64,000 nucleotides of DNA from Anodontia alba (lineage: Eukaryota; Mollusca; Bivalvia; Lucinida; Lucinidae): NCBI GenBank assembly GCA_964016985.1, contig OZ024826.1:46600978-46664977 (forward strand), read 5' to 3'. The position numbers and the translations under genes are program-made. Numbering within the stretch: position 1 is the stretch's first letter; the number at the start of each line of letters is the position of its first letter. Below the pieces are notes generated by a model. It ran no database searches and was not told where the DNA came from. It saw only the letters and a program-made list of their open reading frames with translations. This document shows, in pieces, positions 9,916 to 42,456 of the stretch.

Positions 9916-11379
9916 TCATCGTTCTAAAACGACAAACTTGACAGGCTTCGGCTTTGCAGTTAACAACTGGATTGGTGTCAGGTCTATTGGTTCGGTGTCC
10001 ACTCTAGTAAACGTACATCTTTGAAGAAGGTTAGACAGTATAAGAAAGATATTCAGCTTAGCCAGGTGTTCTCCTAAACACCTTCTTGGGCCTAAACCAA
10101 ACGCAATAACACGACTGCATTTTGTTAAATCTAGTTCATCATTATTATTCAGAAGACGTTCTGGCCGAAAGATCTCTGGATTTGTCCAGTAACTTTCATC
10201 CATGTTGGCTGAATGTATGTTCACAATCACAACTGTGCCTTTATCAATGTCAAATCCTCCCAGTTTCGTGTCTTCAGTAGTGTAGCGCGGGACACTTAAC
10301 TGAGCAGCACTTCTAATGCGGAACGCTTCGACAATGGTAGCTTCAGTATAGCATAACTTTGGTCTGTCTTTAAGACTAACCTTACGTCCAGAGCCAACGA
10401 CTTCATCAATTTCATTTTGAATTCGCGTTTGAACCTGTGGATAGAGAAGCAAATACGTAATTAGCCAACAGAGGGTTACAGTTGTCGTGTCTTGACCTGC
10501 ACCCATCAGTTCATTCATCGCAACCAAATCAAATCCTTTGGGTACATCTGCAGCATGGAAAACACCCAAAATGTCTTTAACGTTAGTGTTATCGAATGTT
10601 TTTGAGTGGTTTAAGACTTGTGTGGCTACAGCACCAACAGCTTGGCTCATAACATTTATCAGTTTCGAAGCTTTCCCAGGCATGAACACTTTCAACCAAG
10701 GCATCGTATCAAGTGGGTTCTTTTTAGGAGAAAAGCAGTCGTTAAGTTCATTCGAAAGTGCGATAACATATTTGAAGGCATCATCATCTCTCAGATTTTT
10801 TTCCCTGCCATAAAGTAGCTGATATAGTATACTTCCAACAGAAACTCGTATACTGTCTTCAATGAAATGTGGCTTTCCATTCCAGGACAAAATTTCATCG
10901 AGTAATATTTCAACTTCTTCATGTACAATTGCCTGAGTATGTGTGGATTCTGTATTTGTAAATCGATGCAATGCACGCATCGATAATTTTCGTAGTTCCC
11001 TATTCGACTGACTAAAAGAACCAAAGGCCAAACTGTCATGTCCTTCATACGTTTTCTTAAACATTCTTGCAGATAAGAACTCTGGTCGGTCTGAAAAGGT
11101 ATTGCCCTTTCTTACCATTGCCTCTTTAATGACGGTATAGCCATTTATAACTACTGTTCTCCAGGATCCCATCCGGATGCAAAAGACGTCGCCATATTTT
11201 CGCCGCCATATCTGGAATTTATATTGTGGATGAGTTCCCATTAACGGTATATGTCCAACAAGCGGAAATCCCCACGGTCCTGGAGGGTACCTTTTCCTTA
11301 TATTTTTAAACAGCATCAACGTATAGGCGGATAGTAGAAATATGCAAATGACCAACATCACATCACTCAGTTCCAGCAT
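9916..11379 (-). CDS. Cytochrome P450, CYP2-clan-like, microsomal
   Basis: A 487-residue protein of normal P450 length in one uninterrupted exon. It has an N-terminal membrane anchor (about residues 7-24) and a proline-rich hinge PPGPWGFP (32-39), the pattern of ER-bound P450s. The I-helix oxygen-activation motif is GAGQDTTT (about 293-300), the K-helix E-x-x-R is EAFR (351-354), a meander FRPERL follows (404-409), and the heme loop FGLGPRRCLG (428-437) supplies the Cys ligand. All signature residues are present, so it should be an active monooxygenase; the substrate cannot be read from sequence. The start is the first Met and precedes the anchor. The C-helix tryptophan commonly seen in this clan appears replaced (SNRELRK). 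CYP2-like or CYP17-like placement is inference. Confidence 0.95.
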   Translation of the reverse strand: MLELSDVMLVICIFLLSAYTLMLFKNIRKRYPPGPWGFPLVGHIPLMGTHPQYKFQIWRRKYGDVFCIRMGSWRTVVINGYTVIKEAMVRKGNTFSDRPEFLSARMFKKTYEGHDSLAFGSFSQSNRELRKLSMRALHRFTNTESTHTQAIVHEEVEILLDEILSWNGKPHFIEDSIRVSVGSILYQLLYGREKNLRDDDAFKYVIALSNELNDCFSPKKNPLDTMPWLKVFMPGKASKLINVMSQAVGAVATQVLNHSKTFDNTNVKDILGVFHAADVPKGFDLVAMNELMGAGQDTTTVTLCWLITYLLLYPQVQTRIQNEIDEVVGSGRKVSLKDRPKLCYTEATIVEAFRIRSAAQLSVPRYTTEDTKLGGFDIDKGTVVIVNIHSANMDESYWTNPEIFRPERLLNNNDELDLTKCSRVIAFGLGPRRCLGEHLAKLNIFLILSNLLQRCTFTRVDTEPIDLTPIQLLTAKPKPVKFVVLER

Positions 11380-11689
11380 CTTGTTCCAAATATAATATTA
11401 AACGAAATTTGAAATTATATTGAAATATTCTACTTTATTTTTTATAGCAAGTTACTTATACACAAAAGCACCTTACTTGACAGATAACGTTCTTTTGACT
11501 TTATACTTCTTCGAAGTACATCTCTCTAATTTTAGCTGCATTTACTGCGTTACGTGATCACAATAATCGTGTTTATATGTTTACAGAAAACTTTTAGGTT
11601 ACTGGATACACTTGCTGATTTTGCACCATTTTTACAATATAGCGTACAGACAACCTTTTTGATTTCCAAACTGGCTTTCTTAAAAAATC
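11380..11689. other. Upstream flank of the P450 gene
   Basis: AT-rich, no recognisable repeat. As the minus-strand 5' flank it should hold the promoter, but I see no decisive TATA or Inr arrangement. Confidence 0.3.
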
Positions 11690-12987: not shown

Positions 12988-12991
12988 ATGT
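12988..12991. other. Candidate target-site duplication, left
   Basis: ATGT immediately precedes the left 450-bp repeat and also follows the right one at 18249-18252. Counting bases that could belong to either side, ATGTGG matches (12988-12993 and 18249-18254). Confidence 0.5.
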
Positions 12992-13441
12992 GGGTGCTTA
13001 CCACTAAATATTTTCCATAGGCGACAGTAGTAACATTTCCAACTTTTCCTAATAAACCACACATACAATGTTTACAAAAGCTCTCTTATTTGAGACATCT
13101 ACTGCAGCACATTAGTTTTCAAAATTAAAAACAATGTCAAGCCCACCTCCGAAAGCCATGATATTTTCATGAACTTGTTTACATACAGTTCCGCAGAAAA
13201 TGAGTAAGCATTTTTTTCCCCGAGGGGAGGCACAATAAAAAAATGATACATTTTTTCAGCTGATGATTTATAAGGCTGAAACACACATGATTTTTATTTA
13301 TATGAATTGTCCTTTCCTCACCATGTCTTAAATTCAAGGCCCATGACCAATGGCAGCCACCATTTATATTTTCCTCTGCACTAAAACTTCTCCCCATAAA
13401 GGGCGGGGCCACTGCTCATGAATATTTAGTAGCGTGCTACC
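12992..13441 (+). repeat. Left 450-bp terminal direct repeat
   Basis: Starts GGGTGCTTACC and ends GTAGCGTGCTACC. It aligns without gaps to 17799-18248; the only difference I see is G to A near the end (GGGCGGGGCC against GGGCGGAGCC). The near identity implies a recent insertion or gene conversion. Apparent open frames inside it occur in both copies and look fortuitous. Confidence 0.95.
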
Positions 13442-14620
13442 TATACCAAAAAGTTTTTTTTCTTCTATGCATGTAAATTGCATTTATTTCATTAGGTATG
13501 GCATCAGTAAAGAGTATCCCAAAATATAAAACCTGCAGAAATAGACAGTCAGCATATTTTTACATTTCTATGCAGTACCCCTCTTCTGCGGCCACTCGCA
13601 GTCCGAGCTGCACTGGAGAAAAACTGAAGTAAAAGTTCACCTTGTAGCATCCCTGTTGTACATGTCATAGCTGAACTCCTGGCCACTTTCTTGTTTCTAT
13701 GGGAGGTCTATATCCTGAAATGTAAAGAAAAGACTCTTCTAAATTGTAAATAGGTGCTGAAATAATGATTTTAGGAGCAGATCTGCTGTTTCTATAGAAA
13801 ATCTAAGCTGTAGGGCAGTAACTGTGTTGCAACTAGTGCAATAATGCAAAGAGAGTTATGTCCCTTGTATTAAAAAGAAATTTAACCCTTTTATGTGGTT
13901 TACAAACACACATCACAACACGCTTCTATGAAATACTACTGAAAAATTGAGTTGGCGTTTCGGCACATGCCTTGCGGCCAAATGACGTACAAGTGCATCT
14001 GGTAGATCTTGCACTCACACCCAACAGCTCATCCTGCAATTTTTTAGTTTGGATGTATGATTTGTTTTTGTTGTTGTATTTTGTTGTTGTATTTGTTGTA
14101 TTTGTTGTCATTGTTGTTGGTGCTGCTGTAATCTTACTTACCATCAACACAGTCCCTAAATGACTTTAATGTTTACACAAAAGCAACAGCACATATAGAA
14201 ATGTCAGCAACTGCTAATATTTGCTGCAGCAGCTGGTATCCACTTGAATGATATACCCTTTATCTTTATTTTTATCACCAAAACACCAATTAGCAAATTT
14301 TTTTCTTGTCCTGGAGACATTAAGACCAGGCTGGTATCACTTTATATTGTCTTTCTTCACAAGCTGAGGTCAGTTAGATTGAAATTATTCACATAGAATG
14401 CTGTGTTCTTTCTCTGCTCATGTATTTTATATATTTATGTTGCCTTTAAACTGGATGTATTGTGATATTTGTTTGTATTAAATAATAAGAAATGGATTTT
14501 ATTGTTATACTGTGAAAATAGTGTGAACAATATTTTGTTAAACTTTGTTAAACACTGCTTTTCATGTATATATGTGACATTATATGTGACATACAATTCT
14601 TGTTCTAACATCAAAACACC

Positions 14621-14874
14621 ATGGTATTTAGAAAAAAGAGCAGAACTGACTTTCAAACCCGGTTTAAGAAAGGGTCTCTGCCTCCCAATAAGGGAAAAAC
14701 ATTAGTAAAAGAAAATAAAAAGGACACACAAAAACCTTACGTAAGGCTGACAAAAGAAAGGCATCAATTAATTACTGAAAATGCCACTGCAGTGCCACCT
14801 GTAAGATTTCTACGTCCTAGGCAAACTGAGAGGCCAGAAATAGAGAAATGTGCAGATTGTGAACCCGACCATAG
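14621..14874 (+). CDS. Mutator-like transposase, exon 1
   Basis: Encodes a basic N-terminal segment beginning MVFRKKSRTDFQTRFKKGS and ending in a Cys motif (CADCEPDH). The start ATG has a good context (ACACCATGG). The exon ends at AG followed by GTATGC, a consensus donor, and joins in frame to the acceptor TCTTCAG at 15376, giving an Arg across the junction. The 502-base intron (14875-15376) carries stop codons in this frame. The basic residues suggest DNA binding or a nuclear localisation signal (inference). Confidence 0.65.
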
Positions 14875-15376
14875 GTATGCTATATTTATCACTGTATTTT
14901 CATTAATTTGAGACCTGTCATGATAAAAGGTACCTTTTTCCATGGCTCTGAAGGCAAAACAGAGCCATGATCTGAATGTATTGATCAGACCGTGTGGGGT
15001 CCGGCAGCCAGAGTTAGTAGTATACATATATTATGCTTTTGAGCATGACCAAACTGTGAGCTCTGATCTGGGTCTTCCATGTTTGCATATATATCATAAT
15101 TCTGATCAGGGTCCATCATGTTTGTGTATGCATTAAAACTGTGATCTGGGTCTATCATGTTTGCATATGTACCATAATTGACAGTTTTGTCTCACTCTGT
15201 CACTGTTTACTTGAATATCATATTTGTTTCCTGTTATTTTGCTTTAGACAAACTGTTACTAGCATTTTCTTGAGTTCTTGAAATATTATGTAGTAAACTG
15301 TACCTTTCCTTTCATTTTGCCTGAAAGCTGTACTGAATAATGGGTTAATGCAATATGCACATTTTCTAATCTTCAG

Positions 15377-17299
15377 GTCTGAAATGGACAGTTACAGGCT
15401 GGTGCACCTGAGAAAAACTGCAGAGATGTGGAACCAAGTGTTCCAAGACCACAAGAAAGCCTCACCCAAATGTAAAAAAGGATTTCTATCCTGGGATATG
15501 GAGGCAGAACAAAAATATGGTCTATGCTGGAGGGAGCGAGTATGCTGCGACTCTTGCAACTTTACATCGAAAATGTACAATCTTTTCGATGACGTGCAAA
15601 AAAACACTCCCGGTCGTCGCCCAGCAAATATTAATCAGGGCATTCATGTTGGCCTCAGCCAAACTTCTATAGGTGCTTCAAGTTTTACTAAAGTACTGTG
15701 TAGCATGAATACACCACCTCCATCAGTCAGTGGCATGCAAAAATCTGCTAACACAAATATGAAAGTTATTATGGAGGAAAATGTTAAGGATATGAAGTTG
15801 CGATGTCAGGAGTTACGGTCACTAATCAGGGCATTCATGTTGGCCTCAGCCAAACTTCTATAGGTGCTTCAAGTTTTACTAAAGTACTGTGTAACATGAA
15901 TACACCACCTCCATCAGTCAGTGGCATGCAAAAATCTGCTAACACAAATATGAAAGTTATTATGGAGGAAAATGTTAAGGATATGAAGTTGCGATGTCAG
16001 GAGTTACGGTCACTGAACATTCTTTCGGGTAAAAATCCTGCCAGTGTCAATGTTCAGGCAGATGGCTGCTACAATAATGCTCTGTACTCTGGGGTTGGTA
16101 AGACTCCATTTCAGCCCAGCACGCAAGCTATATATCTGGTTGCAGAAAATGAGACCCCAAAACACCAAATTATTAATGTACAGACCAAATCAAAGCTCTG
16201 TTCAAAACGCAAGCATGGCTCGAACATTGAATGCCAGCATGAAGGCGAGTGTTTTGCCAATATTGACATGGCCAGCAATATTGGCAATGAAGAGGAGTGG
16301 GCAAGACAGAGCTTTCTGGATTTGGCTAATGCTGGTCTTGAAGTGGAGCACTTAACAACAGACCCAGATTCGTCTGCATACCGGGCTGCTATGCAGCTTT
16401 ATGAGGATGGTGTTACATATACCGAACCAAAACACCTTCTTGACACTCGGCATATCTCACATAACCATAGGAAATTTATCAAAAACATGAGTGAGTTAAC
16501 CAAGCATATGCCTGGAAAGTTTAAGTATGAAAGGCAGAAAATGCAAGACAAATTTGCAATAGACCTGGCCGAGCGCTGTCAAGCTGAATTCTCTCAGGCT
16601 TTCAATAAATTTCCTCATGATGCCTTAAAATTAAAGTCAGCCTTGTCATACACATGTGATGCTGTTGTTCAGTGTTACCATGGCAATCATGACCTATGTA
16701 ATCTCTACTCTTTCGTATGCTTGGCCACCAGTAACACCACCTGGTTGCAACGTAGTCCATTTTTAAATGAAGACTTCAGTGTCAAACCTTGTGATGAAAG
16801 TCAGGCCGTGGTACGCAAGTGTGTGGAGTATCGCTTAGGTCAAGATATGCTAGAAAAAACTAAAATGAACACAAATACACAGAAAGTTGAAGCATCAAAT
16901 AGAAGTATGAGAAGATCTATACCAAAAAGTGTTACCTTTTCAAGAAATTTTCCTGGTCGGTCACACAGTGCGGCACACAACATCAATCATGGTCCGGGTG
17001 AATCGATATACCAACTCTGTAAGGTTGTCGGTTCACCAATTTCTCCAGGAACCAGGGTCTCCCGTGCCCTAAAACAACAACAAAATATTAACGACTGCCA
17101 TAAAAGGCGCAAAAAAACAAAAGCATATATAGACAGAAGAAGCAGGAAGCGGCGGGCATTATTCAAACTGTACGAAACATGCCAAGAAGAAGTGAAGTAT
17201 CATAAAAATATGCTACTTCCTGTGCAGCCTGAAAAATTCCGCCGCGACCATACTTATACAAGGATAGACAGGCCGAAAAGAGTAAAAATAAAGAAATAA
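15377..17299 (+). pseudogene. Mutator-like DDE transposase, exon 2, frame broken by a tandem duplication
   Basis: The first part (15377-15631) has a Cys-rich segment (CKKGF, CWRERVCCDSC) typical of the zinc-binding N-terminus in this animal transposase family. The main part (open frame 15803-17299, 498 residues) has candidate catalytic aspartates in VQADGCYNN (D87) and TTDPDS (D187), then DTRH (214-217), the D/C-x-x-H signature of Mutator-like enzymes. The conserved block QCYHGNHDLCNLYSFVC and the family-specific tail (EASNRSMRRSIPKS, then NFPGRSHSAAHNINHGPGES) follow, ending in a basic C-terminus. A 191-bp direct duplication (15632-16013) shifts the frame, so this copy is probably inactive unless splicing removes one copy. 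AATAAA sequences overlap the stop codon. Confidence 0.8.
15632..16013 (+). repeat. 191-bp tandem duplication inside the transposase exon
   Basis: 15632-15822 and 15823-16013 are adjacent copies that differ at one visible base (TGTAGCATG against TGTAACATG). Because 191 is not a multiple of three it disrupts the reading frame. Almost no divergence means it is very recent or an assembly artefact. Confidence 0.95.
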
Positions 17300-17317
17300 A
17301 CCTCTGAAAACCTTGCA

Positions 17318-17701
17318 TCACAACAAACAAAATGGTTGATGCTGTTTTGTGCACTGTCCCTGACTTTTACAAGATATTCTTTCCAAATTGGTTTCATGAG
17401 TCTCCAGGACTAAGTGTGCTGGGTTCACACAAATGCCATTATGGCACAAGTGAGAAACCTCTAACTTCTTCCCATTATCATTGATACAGGGCATATCAGC
17501 ACGTAATATCTCATGGGCAGCCATATAAGACACTCTGTGGCACGTCTCAACAGATTTTGTCCCATCTGGCCAAGTTACAGTCAACTTCCCATAGGTGCCA
17601 TGTTCCAGGCACCCCACCCACTCATTGCACTGGTGCTGGCCCTGGTTGAAAAGGGTCTTTTTTGATAATTTCTCCTTTAAATGCCACCAGAATGCATCCA
17701 T
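17318..17701 (-). CDS. His-Me finger (I-PpoI-type, Zn-binding) endonuclease
   Basis: A 127-residue protein with the zinc-binding loop of His-Me homing endonucleases. SHLCHNGICVNPAH (83-96) supplies the candidate catalytic His84 and zinc ligands C86, C91 and H96. ETNLERISC places Asn105 nine residues after H96, the spacing of the metal-binding Asn in I-PpoI. A second Cys/His cluster (C111, C117, H121, C125) mirrors the second zinc site. Upstream Cys candidates are C25, C31 and C54. No key residue is missing, so the enzyme looks active. The start is the first Met after an in-frame TGA about 30 bases upstream. It is convergent with the transposase gene inside the same unit, which suggests a role in the mobility of that unit (inference); a splice-joined upstream exon cannot be excluded. 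Confidence 0.85.
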   Translation of the reverse strand: MDAFWWHLKEKLSKKTLFNQGQHQCNEWVGCLEHGTYGKLTVTWPDGTKSVETCHRVSYMAAHEILRADMPCINDNGKKLEVSHLCHNGICVNPAHLVLETHETNLERISCKSQGQCTKQHQPFCLL

Positions 17702-17798
17702 TTTACATGGAATCTCCAGAAAATATCAGGCACGTGCCAGGAAGCCTCTTTCTAAAACAAAATCAGCTGTTTGGAAAATACCTCTATTTTTGGCTATA

Positions 17799-18248
17799 GG
17801 GTGCTTACCACTAAATATTTTCCATAGGCGACAGTAGTAACATTTCCAACTTTTCCTAATAAACCACACATACAATGTTTACAAAAGCTCTCTTATTTGA
17901 GACATCTACTGCAGCACATTAGTTTTCAAAATTAAAAACAATGTCAAGCCCACCTCCGAAAGCCATGATATTTTCATGAACTTGTTTACATACAGTTCCG
18001 CAGAAAATGAGTAAGCATTTTTTTCCCCGAGGGGAGGCACAATAAAAAAATGATACATTTTTTCAGCTGATGATTTATAAGGCTGAAACACACATGATTT
18101 TTATTTATATGAATTGTCCTTTCCTCACCATGTCTTAAATTCAAGGCCCATGACCAATGGCAGCCACCATTTATATTTTCCTCTGCACTAAAACTTCTCC
18201 CCATAAAGGGCGGAGCCACTGCTCATGAATATTTAGTAGCGTGCTACC
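17799..18248 (+). repeat. Right 450-bp terminal direct repeat
   Basis: Same orientation as 12992-13441, constant offset of 4,807 bases and no indel. The base before it (A) differs from the base before the left copy (T), which fixes the repeat edge at GGGTG. Confidence 0.95.
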
Positions 18249-18789
18249 ATGTGGTTTACCGTGACCTGAGTCACAAGACGCTTGACAGAAAAAAAGTCAT
18301 GGAGGTATCACTGCCTGGGTTGGAAAAGATGCTGTTACTAATTGTATCCCTTCATCTATATCACAAAATGCGTTAAAGATACAAAATTACTACAGTTTAT
18401 TCCGTAAAATGAAACAGAGTTTCAAGGGATAAAGTGCAGAGTAGTGGAACATAGCACTACTTATTTTTTTCTCTCCTCACTATTACTCAGTAAACCGCAT
18501 GTTACAAGAATATAACATCAGAAGACTTCTTGTGTATGTTTTAAGATGGTCACTTATTTTAGCCTTTAAATTATTCATAGGGCCGTCTTAAAAATATTTT
18601 TTGTTTCCTCTGTCCTGGCTGTAACAAAAAAAGTGGTTGTTCAAAGAAATAATTTTGGTTTCAGATGACAGAAATGAATATGAAAAGGCTATCAAATTCA
18701 TCAGTCTTAGAAAATTATACAAAATAGCTCTCCTTTTTTGTAGTCATAATCTACATTTTTATTTGATTTGGGTTTTACAGCCCTTCCAA
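18249..18789. other. Spacer right of the transposase unit
   Basis: No recognised gene or shared repeat. ATGTGGTTTAC at its start also occurs at 13893-13903, probably by chance. Confidence 0.3.
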
Positions 18790-28749: not shown

Positions 28750-30442
28750 TAATTACAAAAACAAGCCTATTCAACTATACTGAAAGTTTTACCATCAACA
28801 AATCTAAATTTTCCGATAAAAATTCTGATAGTTTTCATACTTCCGCTCAAAACATAGATTGTGGGTGTTCGTTCGTCTGTCATTACTGACAATGACCAAT
28901 CCTAATCAACTGTGTGATGTGTTATTAATTGTGTGTTCTGAGATGGCTGATGAGGCCAATCTTAGCTCTAAACTGCCTGTTGCAGATAGAACAAGAGAGG
29001 TCTGAGGAAGAAAGCACTGCTTGGTGATGCCTTAGCTCTGGCTTTCCGCAGTGCACGTTTCTGCTCGGCTTCGCTGATTCTTTTTGCTTCGTATTCACAA
29101 GCTCCCCTTTTTATGAGGCCTCGCCACTTTGTACGATCCTGTGCAATCTGTTCCCATGACTATGTTGGTATGTTGAAGTCTTTAAAGGAGGCTTTGAAGG
29201 TGTCCTTGTATCGCTTCTTCTGACAACCATGGGAGCGTTTTCCTACTTGAAGTTCTCCATAGAGGATTTTCTTTGGCAAACGTTCATCAGGCATTCTGGT
29301 AACATGTCCTGTCCATCTTAACTGTGCCAATTTCAGAAGAGTATTACACTCTGCATCCCTGCCCTTTTCAGGACTTCTGTGTCTGGAATCCTGTCTTGCC
29401 ACTTGATCTTTAGAAGTTTTCTAAGACAGTTTGTATGGAAGTGGTTCAGTCTTTTGGCATGCCGTTGGTAAACTGTCCAAGTTTTGCATGCGTATAATAG
29501 TGTTGGCAGCACTACCGATCTATATACTTTCAGCTTTGTGTCAAGTCTGATTCCACTTCGGTCCCAAATACTTCCACATACTCGGCCAAATGCTGCACTA
29601 TATAGCTTTGGCAATTCTAGCATTGACTTCATCATCAATGTGCACAACTCCAGACAATGTGCTTCCAAGGTAGGTGAACTTGTCTACCACATGCAGTCGT
29701 TGAGCTTTCACTGTGATGGTAGGTTCCTTGTAAGGCTTTCCAGGTGCTGGCTGATATACTACCTCAGTCTTTTTGATGCTGACTGTGAGGTCATAGCTGT
29801 CACATAAATCAGATACTTGATCCACACCTTTTTGCATTTTCTCTTCTGTCGGAGCACCCTTTGCCATGCCATCAGCAAAGAGGAAGTCATCTAGCACCTC
29901 TGTCTGCACCTTAGATTTAGCCTGCAACCTTCTTAGGTTGAAAAGTTTGCCATCAAATCGATACCTAATAGGTATACCATTGTCACCATCCTGGAAAGCA
30001 TCTGTTAGCATGGCAGAAAACATCATGCTGAAGAGTGTTGAAGCTAGTACACAGCCTTGCTTAATTCCATTTGTCACAGGGAATGGATCAGAAAACTCGC
30101 CATCATTTTGGACCCTTGCAAACATACCATCATGGAAATGCCGCACCATTGCTATGAATTTGGCAGGGCAGCCAAACTTTGCCGTAATTTTCCAAAGTCC
30201 CTCACGACTGACTGTGTCAAATGCTTTGGTAAGGTCGACAAAGGTCATGTAGAGGTCCACATTCTGTTCCATTGCATTTTTCTTGAAGCTGTCGTGCTGT
30301 AAAGATCATGTCTATTGTTCCTCTGTTTTTCGTTCTTTGAGCAGAAATAAGAAAATTAATGTTTACCCATGTAAACCTCAGTTTAAGTATATAAAAATGG
30401 GGTTTAAGGGGATCAAAATTATTTAGGTAAGTGTTCGTGATG
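28750..30442 (-). mobile_element. Family A hairpin MITE split by a LINE (A9)
   Basis: 28750-28874 is the TAATTACAAAAACAAGCC half up to the core arm (TTGTGGGTGTTCGTT). 30331-30442 is the other half from TTTGAGCAGAAATAAG to AGTGTTCGTGATG. The LINE sits in the core between them, flanked by TTCGTTC on both sides. Confidence 0.85.
28875..30328 (-). pseudogene. LINE (RTE/CR1-like) reverse transcriptase fragment with 7-bp target duplication
   Basis: The frame 29598-30272 encodes reverse transcriptase domains: FVDLTKAFDTVSREGLWKI, NGIKQGCVLASTLFSMMFSA, then LDDFLFADGMAKG where the usual FADD box has become FADG. 29333-29668 continues with LDTKLKVYRSVVLPTLLYAC, and 29160-29402 with LAQLRWTGHVTRMPDERLPK. 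Frame breaks between these parts and the mutated catalytic Asp make it inactive. The 5' end is truncated inside the RT and the 3' end is GACAGAC(G), shared with the copy at 8566-9428. TTCGTTC occurs at 28868-28874 and 30329-30335. Clade placement is tentative. Confidence 0.9.
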
Positions 30443-37202: not shown

Positions 37203-38210
37203 TTATTTCTTACATGCTGCAGTTGCCTTGTTCATTGTTTCTTCAGTTATATTCGTCAAAAAGTTATCATTTAGAAGTAAACTATTGTTTAGATTCATTT
37301 TATAAATATCACTAGCAGTAGCTTTGTGATACAAGAGGAAATGCCTGCAAAAATCAAAAGTCTTATATTTCCAGTAATCAGCTTTCCTTGGTGTACCCTT
37401 CCAAAACCATACCATTCGGCCATTGGCTCTTTCGTTTACATACACAATGTCATTATAAATTTTAATCCAATGTCCGAACCTGTGCCCTGCGTTCCCGTCG
37501 TATAAACAATTTTCCACCTTACTGACATCACAAAAACTTCTATCAGCCACTCTCCTCGCCAGTTCGACGCCGACTATGAGAAACATTTCATCTACACAGT
37601 CCTGCTTTGGGCACTGCGAGACTAATCCTGTGGGGTATCCATAATACAACAATTCATGTTTGACATCATTAAGTCTGTCAAATATTTGTGGAACACACGC
37701 AAACACGTCATCATCCATCCGTCCTATAAGTACAGCGTCCGGAAAATTACTGACTGCATAGTTAAGCCAGCTATGGAACTTTCTAGCGAAACTTTTCCCA
37801 TGTCCATGGACTGATGTATTTAGAAACACTAAATCCTGGTTAATTCTGTGCTCTTCTTCAAGCTCTAGTGTAATCTGGTCTATCAAAAAGAAAGCTTTTA
37901 TAATCAATGGTTTATAAGCGCTTGCTTTTGTTATGAACATCTTACGCTGAGCATCCCTCAGACAAAGATTTTTTGACTGGGATAATATTCCAATTACTAC
38001 TGTCTTTCTTGTCGGCTTTGGGAACGGTACTTCGTTATTCTTCATAAAAAATATATATCCACGTGAATTAAAAATCCATGTCTGGTTTTCAAGCCTATGT
38101 TTCACATTCTCCTGGCTATGTAGCAATATAATCGTTATTAAAGTAATAATCGTTATTTGAACTATTGTTATGAGAAAACAAATGTTACGAAGTCTCCTCT
38201 GGCACTGCAT
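37203..38210 (-). CDS. Galactosyltransferase-like type II membrane protein (GT31-like)
   Basis: A 335-residue single-exon protein. A hydrophobic segment after a short basic N-terminus (about residues 10-30) fits a Golgi type II signal anchor. The lumenal part has VVIGILSQSKNLCLRDAQRK (71-90), similar to the start of the beta-1,3-galactosyltransferase domain; RMDDDVF (164-170), the D-D-D metal/UDP-sugar motif; and FLIVGVELARRVAD (210-223), resembling the acceptor-side region. Cysteines at 200, 205, 227, 235 and 288 could form disulfides, and several N-glycosylation sites are present. Expected role: transfer of a hexose from a UDP-sugar to glycoproteins or glycolipids in the Golgi. It is divergent, so the linkage and acceptor are unknown. 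The start is the first Met before the anchor. Confidence 0.8.
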   Translation of the reverse strand: MQCQRRLRNICFLITIVQITIITLITIILLHSQENVKHRLENQTWIFNSRGYIFFMKNNEVPFPKPTRKTVVIGILSQSKNLCLRDAQRKMFITKASAYKPLIIKAFFLIDQITLELEEEHRINQDLVFLNTSVHGHGKSFARKFHSWLNYAVSNFPDAVLIGRMDDDVFACVPQIFDRLNDVKHELLYYGYPTGLVSQCPKQDCVDEMFLIVGVELARRVADRSFCDVSKVENCLYDGNAGHRFGHWIKIYNDIVYVNERANGRMVWFWKGTPRKADYWKYKTFDFCRHFLLYHKATASDIYKMNLNNSLLLNDNFLTNITEETMNKATAACKK

Positions 38211-39461
38211 TGTGAAATTAATTGCTTTAATCCTGACAAGGTTTGTTGTATTCGACAGTGATCTAATGTGTTCTTAGGATTTTTCAACATCTGAGTCGGG
38301 ATACAGCATTTCCTATACAAGATTGGATGTGCGTCCATTGAAGACTCAAATCGACCTGCACATTCTGAAGACGTTAATGAGATCCTTTGCTATCCACCGA
38401 ATGCCCATGCGAAGACTCGGACGCATTCGCGCAGTCTGATCTGAGTCTCATCTGAACACACATGCAGTCATGTAGGGAAGGCTGTACCCCGGCTTATTCT
38501 GTAAATAAGGTCAGTAAATAAGCCGCGTGGTACGAAAATGTGTCTTTAGGCTGATATGGACGGCGAAGGCTCAGATCAGACTGCGCGGATACGCAGTCTG
38601 ATCCGGGCCTTCGCTGTCCGCTGCCAGAATCATTGGATACTATATAGAATGTAAATGACCGGATGAGCCTTTGTGTATACGCGGGATGACTCTTAATCTG
38701 TGCATTTTGTCATTTCGAAGACACCTTTTCTCTGGCTGCAATTCACTTGAAAAGAGATATATTAAACATGAAATCAGATACGTTTTTTTTTTTTTTTTTT
38801 AATATATTTCACCCGTAAAAGGTGTAACTTATTGTCTAAAATACACACTATTGTGTGTGACCTGAATTTTATGAAAATGAAATATTTAGTCAGCACCTGA
38901 ATGTGATTTCAATCTGCAGTCAGCCAAATACAAAAGGTATTTGTGAAGTAAAATAACTGATTCAGTAAGGAAAATTCCTGCTTTGCCAATGTAAATTAAT
39001 ATTTTTAGTCAGTAAACGATCACGAACATTATTTATCAACTAAGTAATTATTGTTCTAATATGTGCCAAACAGCCTCATCATACCACTGCAACCTTTGGC
39101 ATGATTTCTATATGTTTTTGGCCAGGCTTTCTACGAGGTCAGATACTAAAAGTTACAAGAATTTTGGAGGATAAACACCAGTGGATTCAGGAGGGCCCAT
39201 ATTTTACGATATTAACTAGTCGATGAGACTTTAAAGACAGTGATACTTCATCTGTTTTGTGTTTAGGGTACATCAAGATACCTGTAGTTGCAGACAGCGG
39301 TCCTGAGTATCCATTCAAACACAGCAATATTTTACAAAGTCAGTAACTAACCGCATGGTCAAGCAAGAAACCAGAACAAAAGTACTCAAAAAGAGGTTTT
39401 AATGAATTGCAACACTTTAAAAGTTGAAAATAGAAAGTTGATTAATAAAAATATCATGAAA
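38211..39461. other. Upstream spacer with short hairpins
   Basis: No gene. Hairpins of the CAGATCAGACTGCGCG type lie at about 38340-38460 (degenerate) and 38565-38615 (clear: AAGGCTCAGATCAGACTGCG with its return arm). 38620-39461 holds a poly(T) run and nothing else recognised. Confidence 0.45.
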
Positions 39462-41419: not shown

Positions 41420-42440
41420 CATTGATTTGCAGGCCCTTTTTTCATGGTCCAGTGATTTTGCTTATACCTTAAAGAATTTTCATGGTCAAGTGATTTAGCC
41501 TTATACCTCGAAGAGTATTTCATGTTCGAACACCATACTTTCCGATTATGAGTCAGTATGACCCGAAGTTTGACCTCAAAATAATTTAGGTCATAGTAAC
41601 CTTTAGTTCACGGTCCAGTAATTTTACATTATATCTTGAAGAATATCTGATGTATAAACATCATACCTATGGATTATGAGGATTATGAGCCAGCAAGACT
41701 CAAAGTTTGACCTCAAACTAAATGAAGGTCACAATGACCTACATTTCATGGATCAGTGATTTGTTCACATATCTTGAAGAGTAATCGATTATTAACATTA
41801 TACTTATGGATAATGAGTCAGCATGACCCGAAGTTTGATCTCAAAACAAATATAGGACACAGTGACCTACATTCCCTGCTCCAGTGATTTTGACTTATAT
41901 CTTAGAGAGTATTGATATATAAACATCATACTTTCCGAGTATGCGTCAGTATGACCCGAAATTGACCCAAAACAAAATAGGTCACAGTGACTTGTATTTC
42001 ATGGTCCAGTGATTTTCCTTTTATATCTTGAAGAGTATTTAATATCAAACACCTTGTTTCCTGATTATGGGTTCGTATGACCCGAAGTTTGACCTAAAAG
42101 TAGATGTAGGTCACAGTAACCTATATTTTACAGGCCAGTGATTTTTGCCTTATGTCTTGAAAAATATTTCATGTATAAACACCATTCTTTTAGTCTATCC
42201 TTCAGTTTCATCCGACATTTGACCTCAACATAGATTCAGGGCACATTAATCTATATTTCACAGTCCAGTGAGTTATCTTATATATTGAAGATTATTTAGT
42301 GTATAAACATCATACTTTCGGATTATTAGTCCGTATGACTCGAAGTTTGACTTCAAAATAAATGTAGGTTACAGTAACCAATATTTCACAGTCCAGTGAT
42401 TTTGCCTTAAATCTTGGAGAGTAGTTCATATATAAACATC
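41420..42440. repeat. Tandem array, about 125-130 bp period, about eight units
   Basis: GGTCCAGTGATTTTGCCTTA-type text recurs at roughly 41448, 41480, 41620, 41750, 41880, 42002, 42130, 42262 and 42390, each followed by TCTTGAAGAGTAT, ATAAACATCATACTTTCCGA and TATGACCCGAAGTTTGACCT. Divergence among units is high, so the array is old. Confidence 0.85.
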
Positions 42441-42456
42441 ATACTTTCCGATTATG

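Follow-up and report, generated by a model that had tools for sequence, protein, structure and literature searches.

What kind of mobile unit carries a transposase gene and a homing-type nuclease gene together between two long direct repeats? The question is raised by a 5,257-bp unit at positions 12992-18248 of the window, the 64,000-nucleotide stretch of the genome of the lucinid bivalve Anodontia alba analysed here. An earlier note, made from the letters of this stretch, had described the unit as a Mutator-like transposase packaged with an I-PpoI-type endonuclease, and had suggested that it might represent an undescribed transposon class. The find is real and correctly delimited, but it is already known: the same architecture was published in 2022 as KolobokP, a clam DNA transposon which encodes both a transposase and a homing-type nuclease and whose two ends, of 450 bases each, are nearly identical (Kojima & Bao 2022, Mob DNA 13:24, PMC9587614). 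Taken as a whole, the evidence is best explained if the window unit is a KolobokP element, an assignment which is almost certain. A search of the available literature library found no other paper using this name.

The unit in the window and its identity

The unit consists of an internal region (INT) between two long terminal direct repeats, or LTDRs (Table 1). The two LTDRs of the window copy align without gaps, and ATGT stands outside both ends, as the earlier note had reported almost to the base. The longer flank ATGTGG, which it had offered as an alternative, is probably due to chance, because other insertions show 4 bp. Each LTDR has imperfect inverted termini of its own, with GGGTGCTTACCACTAAATATT at its start and GGTAGCACGCTACTAAATATT, in reverse complement, at its end; its outermost bases are GG...CC, that is, RR..YY termini. 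The contrast drawn in the earlier note with inverted-end elements therefore needs some correction. The INT of the window copy has TATA at its start (13442-13445) and at its end (17795-17798). When the extra copy of a 191-bp stretch is discounted, INT measures 4,166 bp and the unit 5,066 bp.

Table 1. Features of the unit, in window coordinates
Feature	Position	Strand	Remarks
Left target site duplication (ATGT)	12988-12991	.	Same 4 bp at 18249-18252
Left LTDR, 450 bp	12992-13441	+	
LTDR imperfect inverted termini	12992-13012 and 13421-13441		GGGTGCTTACCACTAAATATT / GGTAGCACGCTACTAAATATT; read in sequence
Transposase exon 1	14621-14874	+	Putative splice sites, placed by eye from GT/AG and frame
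Transposase exon 2, PF20700	15377-17299	+	Frame broken in window copy
191-bp tandem duplication, two copies	15632-16013	+	Shifts transposase frame
I-PpoI-like His-Me nuclease gene, 127 aa	17318-17701	-	PF05551, I-PpoI sequence match
INT, 4,357 bp in window copy	13442-17798	+	
Right LTDR, 450 bp	17799-18248	+	1 mismatch vs left LTDR
Right target site duplication (ATGT)	18249-18252	.	Matches left 4 bp

The transposase gene appears to have two exons and one intron. The duplication which breaks its frame was absent from all seven other internal regions compared, and the two broken pieces match PF20700 (Mutator-type) with E values of 3.8e-25 and 1.1e-32. In another copy, L009, exon 2 is open throughout, to its end; the L009 protein, read by eye, contains a D, a CCHC-like motif, a further D, a DTRH motif and a C/C/H/C cluster, and no PDB sequence matched it below E 0.04. 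The nuclease frame is open in the window copy. It matches PF05551 (E 1.8e-15) and, in a sequence search, I-PpoI chains (E 2e-5), and the residues aligned to I-PpoI H98, C100, C105, H110, E114 and N119, whose roles are known in part from PMC9587614, are all identical. In a protein search the nuclease had 17 relatives. A transposase gene (PF20700) and a convergent His-Me nuclease gene (PF05551, I-PpoI) therefore do share one unit, as the earlier note had said, and its view that transposase, nuclease and direct ends make up a single mobile unit is supported. A Pfam scan of four frames from the unit gave no reverse transcriptase match.

Classical Mutator (MuDR) elements normally have long inverted ends and, by the earlier note's figure, target duplications of 8–11 bp; the unit has direct ends and 4-bp duplications. 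‘Mutator-like’ is accurate as a Pfam label (PF20700), but the published account files KolobokP transposases under the Kolobok superfamily (PMC9587614).

According to the text of the same paper, KolobokP LTDRs are approximately 450 or 660 bp long and carry a short terminal inverted repeat of their own (11–18 bp in oyster, perfect or imperfect) with RR..YY termini; full and solo insertions have target duplications of 3–5 bp; the transposase combines a Kolobok DDD/E core with a CCHC finger, a C/DxxH motif and a second finger; the nuclease is an I-PpoI-like His-Me protein encoded downstream on the opposite strand; and both solo LTDRs and multimers are reported (PMC9587614). The window unit has LTDRs of the expected size, inverted and RR..YY termini, and a downstream I-PpoI-like nuclease on the opposite strand, while its genome contains 4-bp duplications at full and solo insertions, solo LTDRs and multimers. 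The closest family is most likely KolobokP-1_MeMe of Mercenaria mercenaria, a name given by the architecture in the paper's text rather than by consensus alignment. In that family INT is bounded by TATA at both ends (PMC9587614), as in the window family, and the likeness extends to the LTDR-INT-LTDR layout, LTDRs of about 450 bp with short inverted termini and RR..YY ends, 4-bp duplications, a forward transposase and a reverse I-PpoI-like nuclease, solo LTDRs, multimers and INT-INT junctions. The window copy differs from it in the 191-bp duplication that breaks the transposase.

The window has other features as well. On the minus strand, an uninterrupted cytochrome P450 frame (9916-11397; PF00067, E 6.6e-89) is 1.6 kb from the element, and the same strand carries a reverse transcriptase fragment (29598-30305; PF00078, E 2.7e-17) and an uninterrupted galactosyltransferase-like frame (37203-38273; PF01762, E 3.3e-5). 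A tandem array of ~128-bp units, in 6 to 7.6 copies, occupies 41478-42456.

Copies and target sites across the genome

A repeat search over the window's own 1.86-Gb assembly, in which 40 of 248 candidates were scored, gave at least 42 LTDR matches, at least 41 of them near full length; both counts are lower bounds because of the number scored. The copies fetched sort into solo LTDRs, full units and multimers (L009 and L015 are of the last kind), and related families are present in the genome as well. Exact 4-bp duplications flank 8 of the 9 full units examined and 15 of 21 solo LTDRs, and at 20 of these 21 at least three of the four flanking bases match. The total is 23 in 30 insertions; in 20,000 shuffles of the flank partners it averaged 1.9 and never exceeded 8. 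Left out of this count were L009, L015, L016, L017, L030, L032 (which duplicates one end of L014), P51 and copies with one end fetched; the flank of L035 was read past a 2-nt loss at the start of its LTDR. One unit thus runs from the outer end of one LTDR to the outer end of the other and duplicates 4 bp when it integrates; such duplications surround solo LTDRs as well, and LTDR-sharing multimers exist. The earlier note had looked to 450-bp repeats standing alone with their own duplications as a sign against a single unit. Such repeats do occur, but the full units also have matching outer 4-bp flanks, and both types of unit therefore exist, in agreement with PMC9587614.

The same evidence bears on whether the unit is a product of segmental duplication or of assembly. 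Direct repeats with one mismatch could arise in this way, and two contigs composed of tandem arrays, C38 and C201 of G000, have suspiciously round sizes (56,000 and 64,000 bp) and may be assembly products. For the unit itself such an origin has a negligible probability: at five further loci on other contigs it is present with its own matching 4-bp flanks, as it is at two older loci. Flanks of full units on other contigs include ACAT, TATA, TTTT, TGAT and ATAA.

Two loci hold LTDRs in unusual arrangements. L016 (L016:981-1882) is a direct LTDR-TATA-LTDR dimer. TATA and AATA flank it on the outside, and its two LTDRs are sisters (ultrafast bootstrap 96). The structure is similar to IS-type dimers that have a spacer of 4 bp, and it is missing from Table 2 of PMC9587614. 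At L017 (G000 C13:53889047-53889592) a 97-bp LTDR fragment ending in CTCTCTTA abuts a full LTDR, with AGTA flanks outside.

Arrays and related families

A search of the genome with the nuclease protein, in which 150 of 181 candidates were scored, led to contigs C38 and C201, tandem arrays of related families with at least 16 and at least 23 nuclease copies, respectively (loci L067-L072, L092-L096 and L098-L101). Some intervals in these arrays are short by 460 or 464 nt (5 of 15 in C38, 3 of 22 in C201). Six of the eight short-interval junctions were inspected. In all six, one INT directly follows another, and the LTDR between them (taken as 455 bp, its ends being placed by eye) is missing together with 5 flanking nt at five junctions and 9 at one. 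These INT-INT junctions are like the excision footprints described for KolobokP (PMC9587614). In L100 and L101, one unit from each array, no transposase similarity was detected before residue 312 of the 603-residue frame of L009, and only the C-terminal part of the protein is recognisable. The nuclease of these two units has lost part of a likely zinc site, through a frameshifted C-terminus in C201 and a small deletion taking a Cys in C38. With a truncated transposase and a damaged nuclease, array growth may not need intact proteins in cis, and a simple model in which the nuclease acts in cis would be weakened.

Two further arrangements belong to other families. Four nuclease copies at an exact spacing of 5,060 nt form a multimer of another family (L073-L074, G000 C7:4548587-4564138). 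In a stretch fetched from L085 (G000 C6:114252540-114253300), the right INT end of a related family, ...GGCTATA, has no LTDR after it and is perhaps an excised end.

It had been asked in the earlier note whether the two genes always occur together. Judged by position, 12 of the 20 best INT left ends have a nuclease match in the same unit. No match adjoins the other eight, one of which is truncated by the end of its contig. Not every surviving copy thus shows a nuclease. This distribution is what might be expected if transposase and nuclease were separate mobile elements sharing a unit by accident, with the nuclease parasitising the transposon, the more so as I-PpoI relatives are known from introns (PMC9587614). 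Such an accident is nonetheless highly improbable, as most KolobokP families, from seven animal phyla, encode both proteins (PMC9587614), and in three or more further families LTDR-like ends adjoin nuclease relatives with 33–57% identity.

Agreement between left and right repeats, and a possible life cycle

Left and right LTDRs were compared in 12 insertions, of which 10 were informative. The informative insertions share 81 derived states between their two ends, against a shuffle mean of 49.2 and a maximum of 77; none of 20,000 shuffles reached 81. Four pairs (P51, P55, P56, P59) were assembled from separately fetched ends, and P51 and P59 are without a matching duplication; a stricter test leaves out these two together with L009 and L015. 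The seven informative insertions with matching outer 4 bp share 46 states, against a mean of 26; of 5,040 permutations only one, the true pairing, reaches this value. Thirteen sites carry substitutions between old and young insertions, and at ten of them the change is present in both LTDRs; the two left-only sites and the one right-only site all sit in gapped or mixed columns. In the stricter set of seven, eight lineage sites are changed in both LTDRs and one, a gap, in the left only. The two LTDRs within an insertion thus carry the same lineage states.

Across the 12 insertions no site separates left LTDRs (at least 80%) from right ones (at most 20%), and one state is present in at least three left and in no right LTDRs. 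The LTDR tree, which leaves out matches shorter than 380 bp (the L017 fragment, L062 and L090), is comb-like with weak deep support; four of the ten informative pairs are sisters (L010, L011, P51, P59). Since the changes are present in both LTDRs and no site separates left from right, the ends evolve in concert and not as independent flanks, which suggests that homogenisation acts on both LTDRs in the active lineage, as it does on LTRs. The agreement between left and right speaks for homogenisation, not for any one route to it, and it partly reflects insertion age. Differences confined to one side look scattered by eye, with no sign of mosaic LTDRs, and the idea that a circle recombines into an old solo LTDR was set aside on this ground.

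Concerted ends also bear on a further explanation, that two independent 450-bp nonautonomous elements came to flank and move a gene segment, as IS elements do around a bacterial passenger. Solo LTDRs with inverted termini and their own duplications are what such an opportunistic composite would leave, and the units within arrays that lack LTDRs, like the bare INT end at L085, could be read in the same way. It remains a very unlikely origin. If the flanks were independent, left and right LTDRs should form lineages of their own, whereas no site separates them and lineage changes are present in both; moreover, LTDR similarity runs straight up to INT at 17 of 18 diverged INT left ends, the eighteenth, L063, having only a weak LTDR match further off.

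For a KolobokP element, the preferred reading, the published proposal is transposition together with unequal crossover that the nuclease induces, and it does not settle how the composite layout persists (PMC9587614). The transposase would cut at LTDR ends, and what it moves could be one LTDR alone or the whole of LTDR-INT-LTDR. The LTDRs would recombine with one another, either through a one-LTDR circle or by unequal crossover, possibly after breaks made by the putative nuclease, and this would rebuild paired ends and multimers and keep the two LTDRs alike. A circular or recombination-based step in the life of the element is therefore plausible. More tentatively, both LTDRs of each successful copy might be rebuilt from one, with a one-LTDR state (a circle or nuclease-induced recombination) in every round of amplification, although the chance of this is put at somewhat below even. 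If true, such a state in each round would amount to an LTR-like life cycle without reverse transcription.

Two sequence signs of the nuclease target were considered and rejected. The right LTDR terminus GCTACC with the next 4 bp resembles half of an I-PpoI site, GCTACC-TTAA (site CTCTCTTAAGGTAGC, PMC6294500; overhang TTAA, PMC9587614). Among the families seen, GCTACC is the terminus in two, that of the window and one with a nuclease of 56–57% identity (L084, L086), and two others have GGTTCC or GTGCCC. An I-PpoI-like octamer, CTCTCTTA, lies at about repeat positions 90-97 of the LTDR, where the L017 fragment stops; this is a single breakpoint, and the octamer is not among the most conserved stretches; inspection of the LTDR of L084 by eye did not show it. 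The idea that TATA at both INT ends is a fossil LTDR duplication was likewise unsupported, because the exact repeat was seen in the window family only: in two other families, with boundaries placed by eye, INT starts with TATC or TATA and ends with AGCA or TCTA.

The unit invites comparison with two better-known layouts. Bacterial composite transposons and IS26-like pseudo-composites (PMC9587614) also have direct end units which flank genes and are found alone; in KolobokP, by contrast, it is the interior and not the end units that carries the genes, and the ends evolve in concert. LTR retrotransposons share direct ends kept alike and solo ends, whereas the unit's ends have imperfect inverted termini of ~20 bp, and it has a PF20700-type transposase and no reverse transcriptase match. 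The words ‘concerted’, ‘homogen’ and ‘satellite’ occur nowhere in the main text of PMC9587614, and a left/right LTDR test was not seen there; the concerted LTDRs are a modest addition to the published KolobokP. The unit exemplifies an already published type of animal DNA transposon, in which LTR-like ends are combined with a homing nuclease. Its concerted LTDRs bear on the question which that paper leaves open, namely how the composite layout persists, and they make this question testable, since predictions for long reads and circle sequencing differ between ordinary unequal crossover, one-LTDR circles and repair induced by the nuclease.
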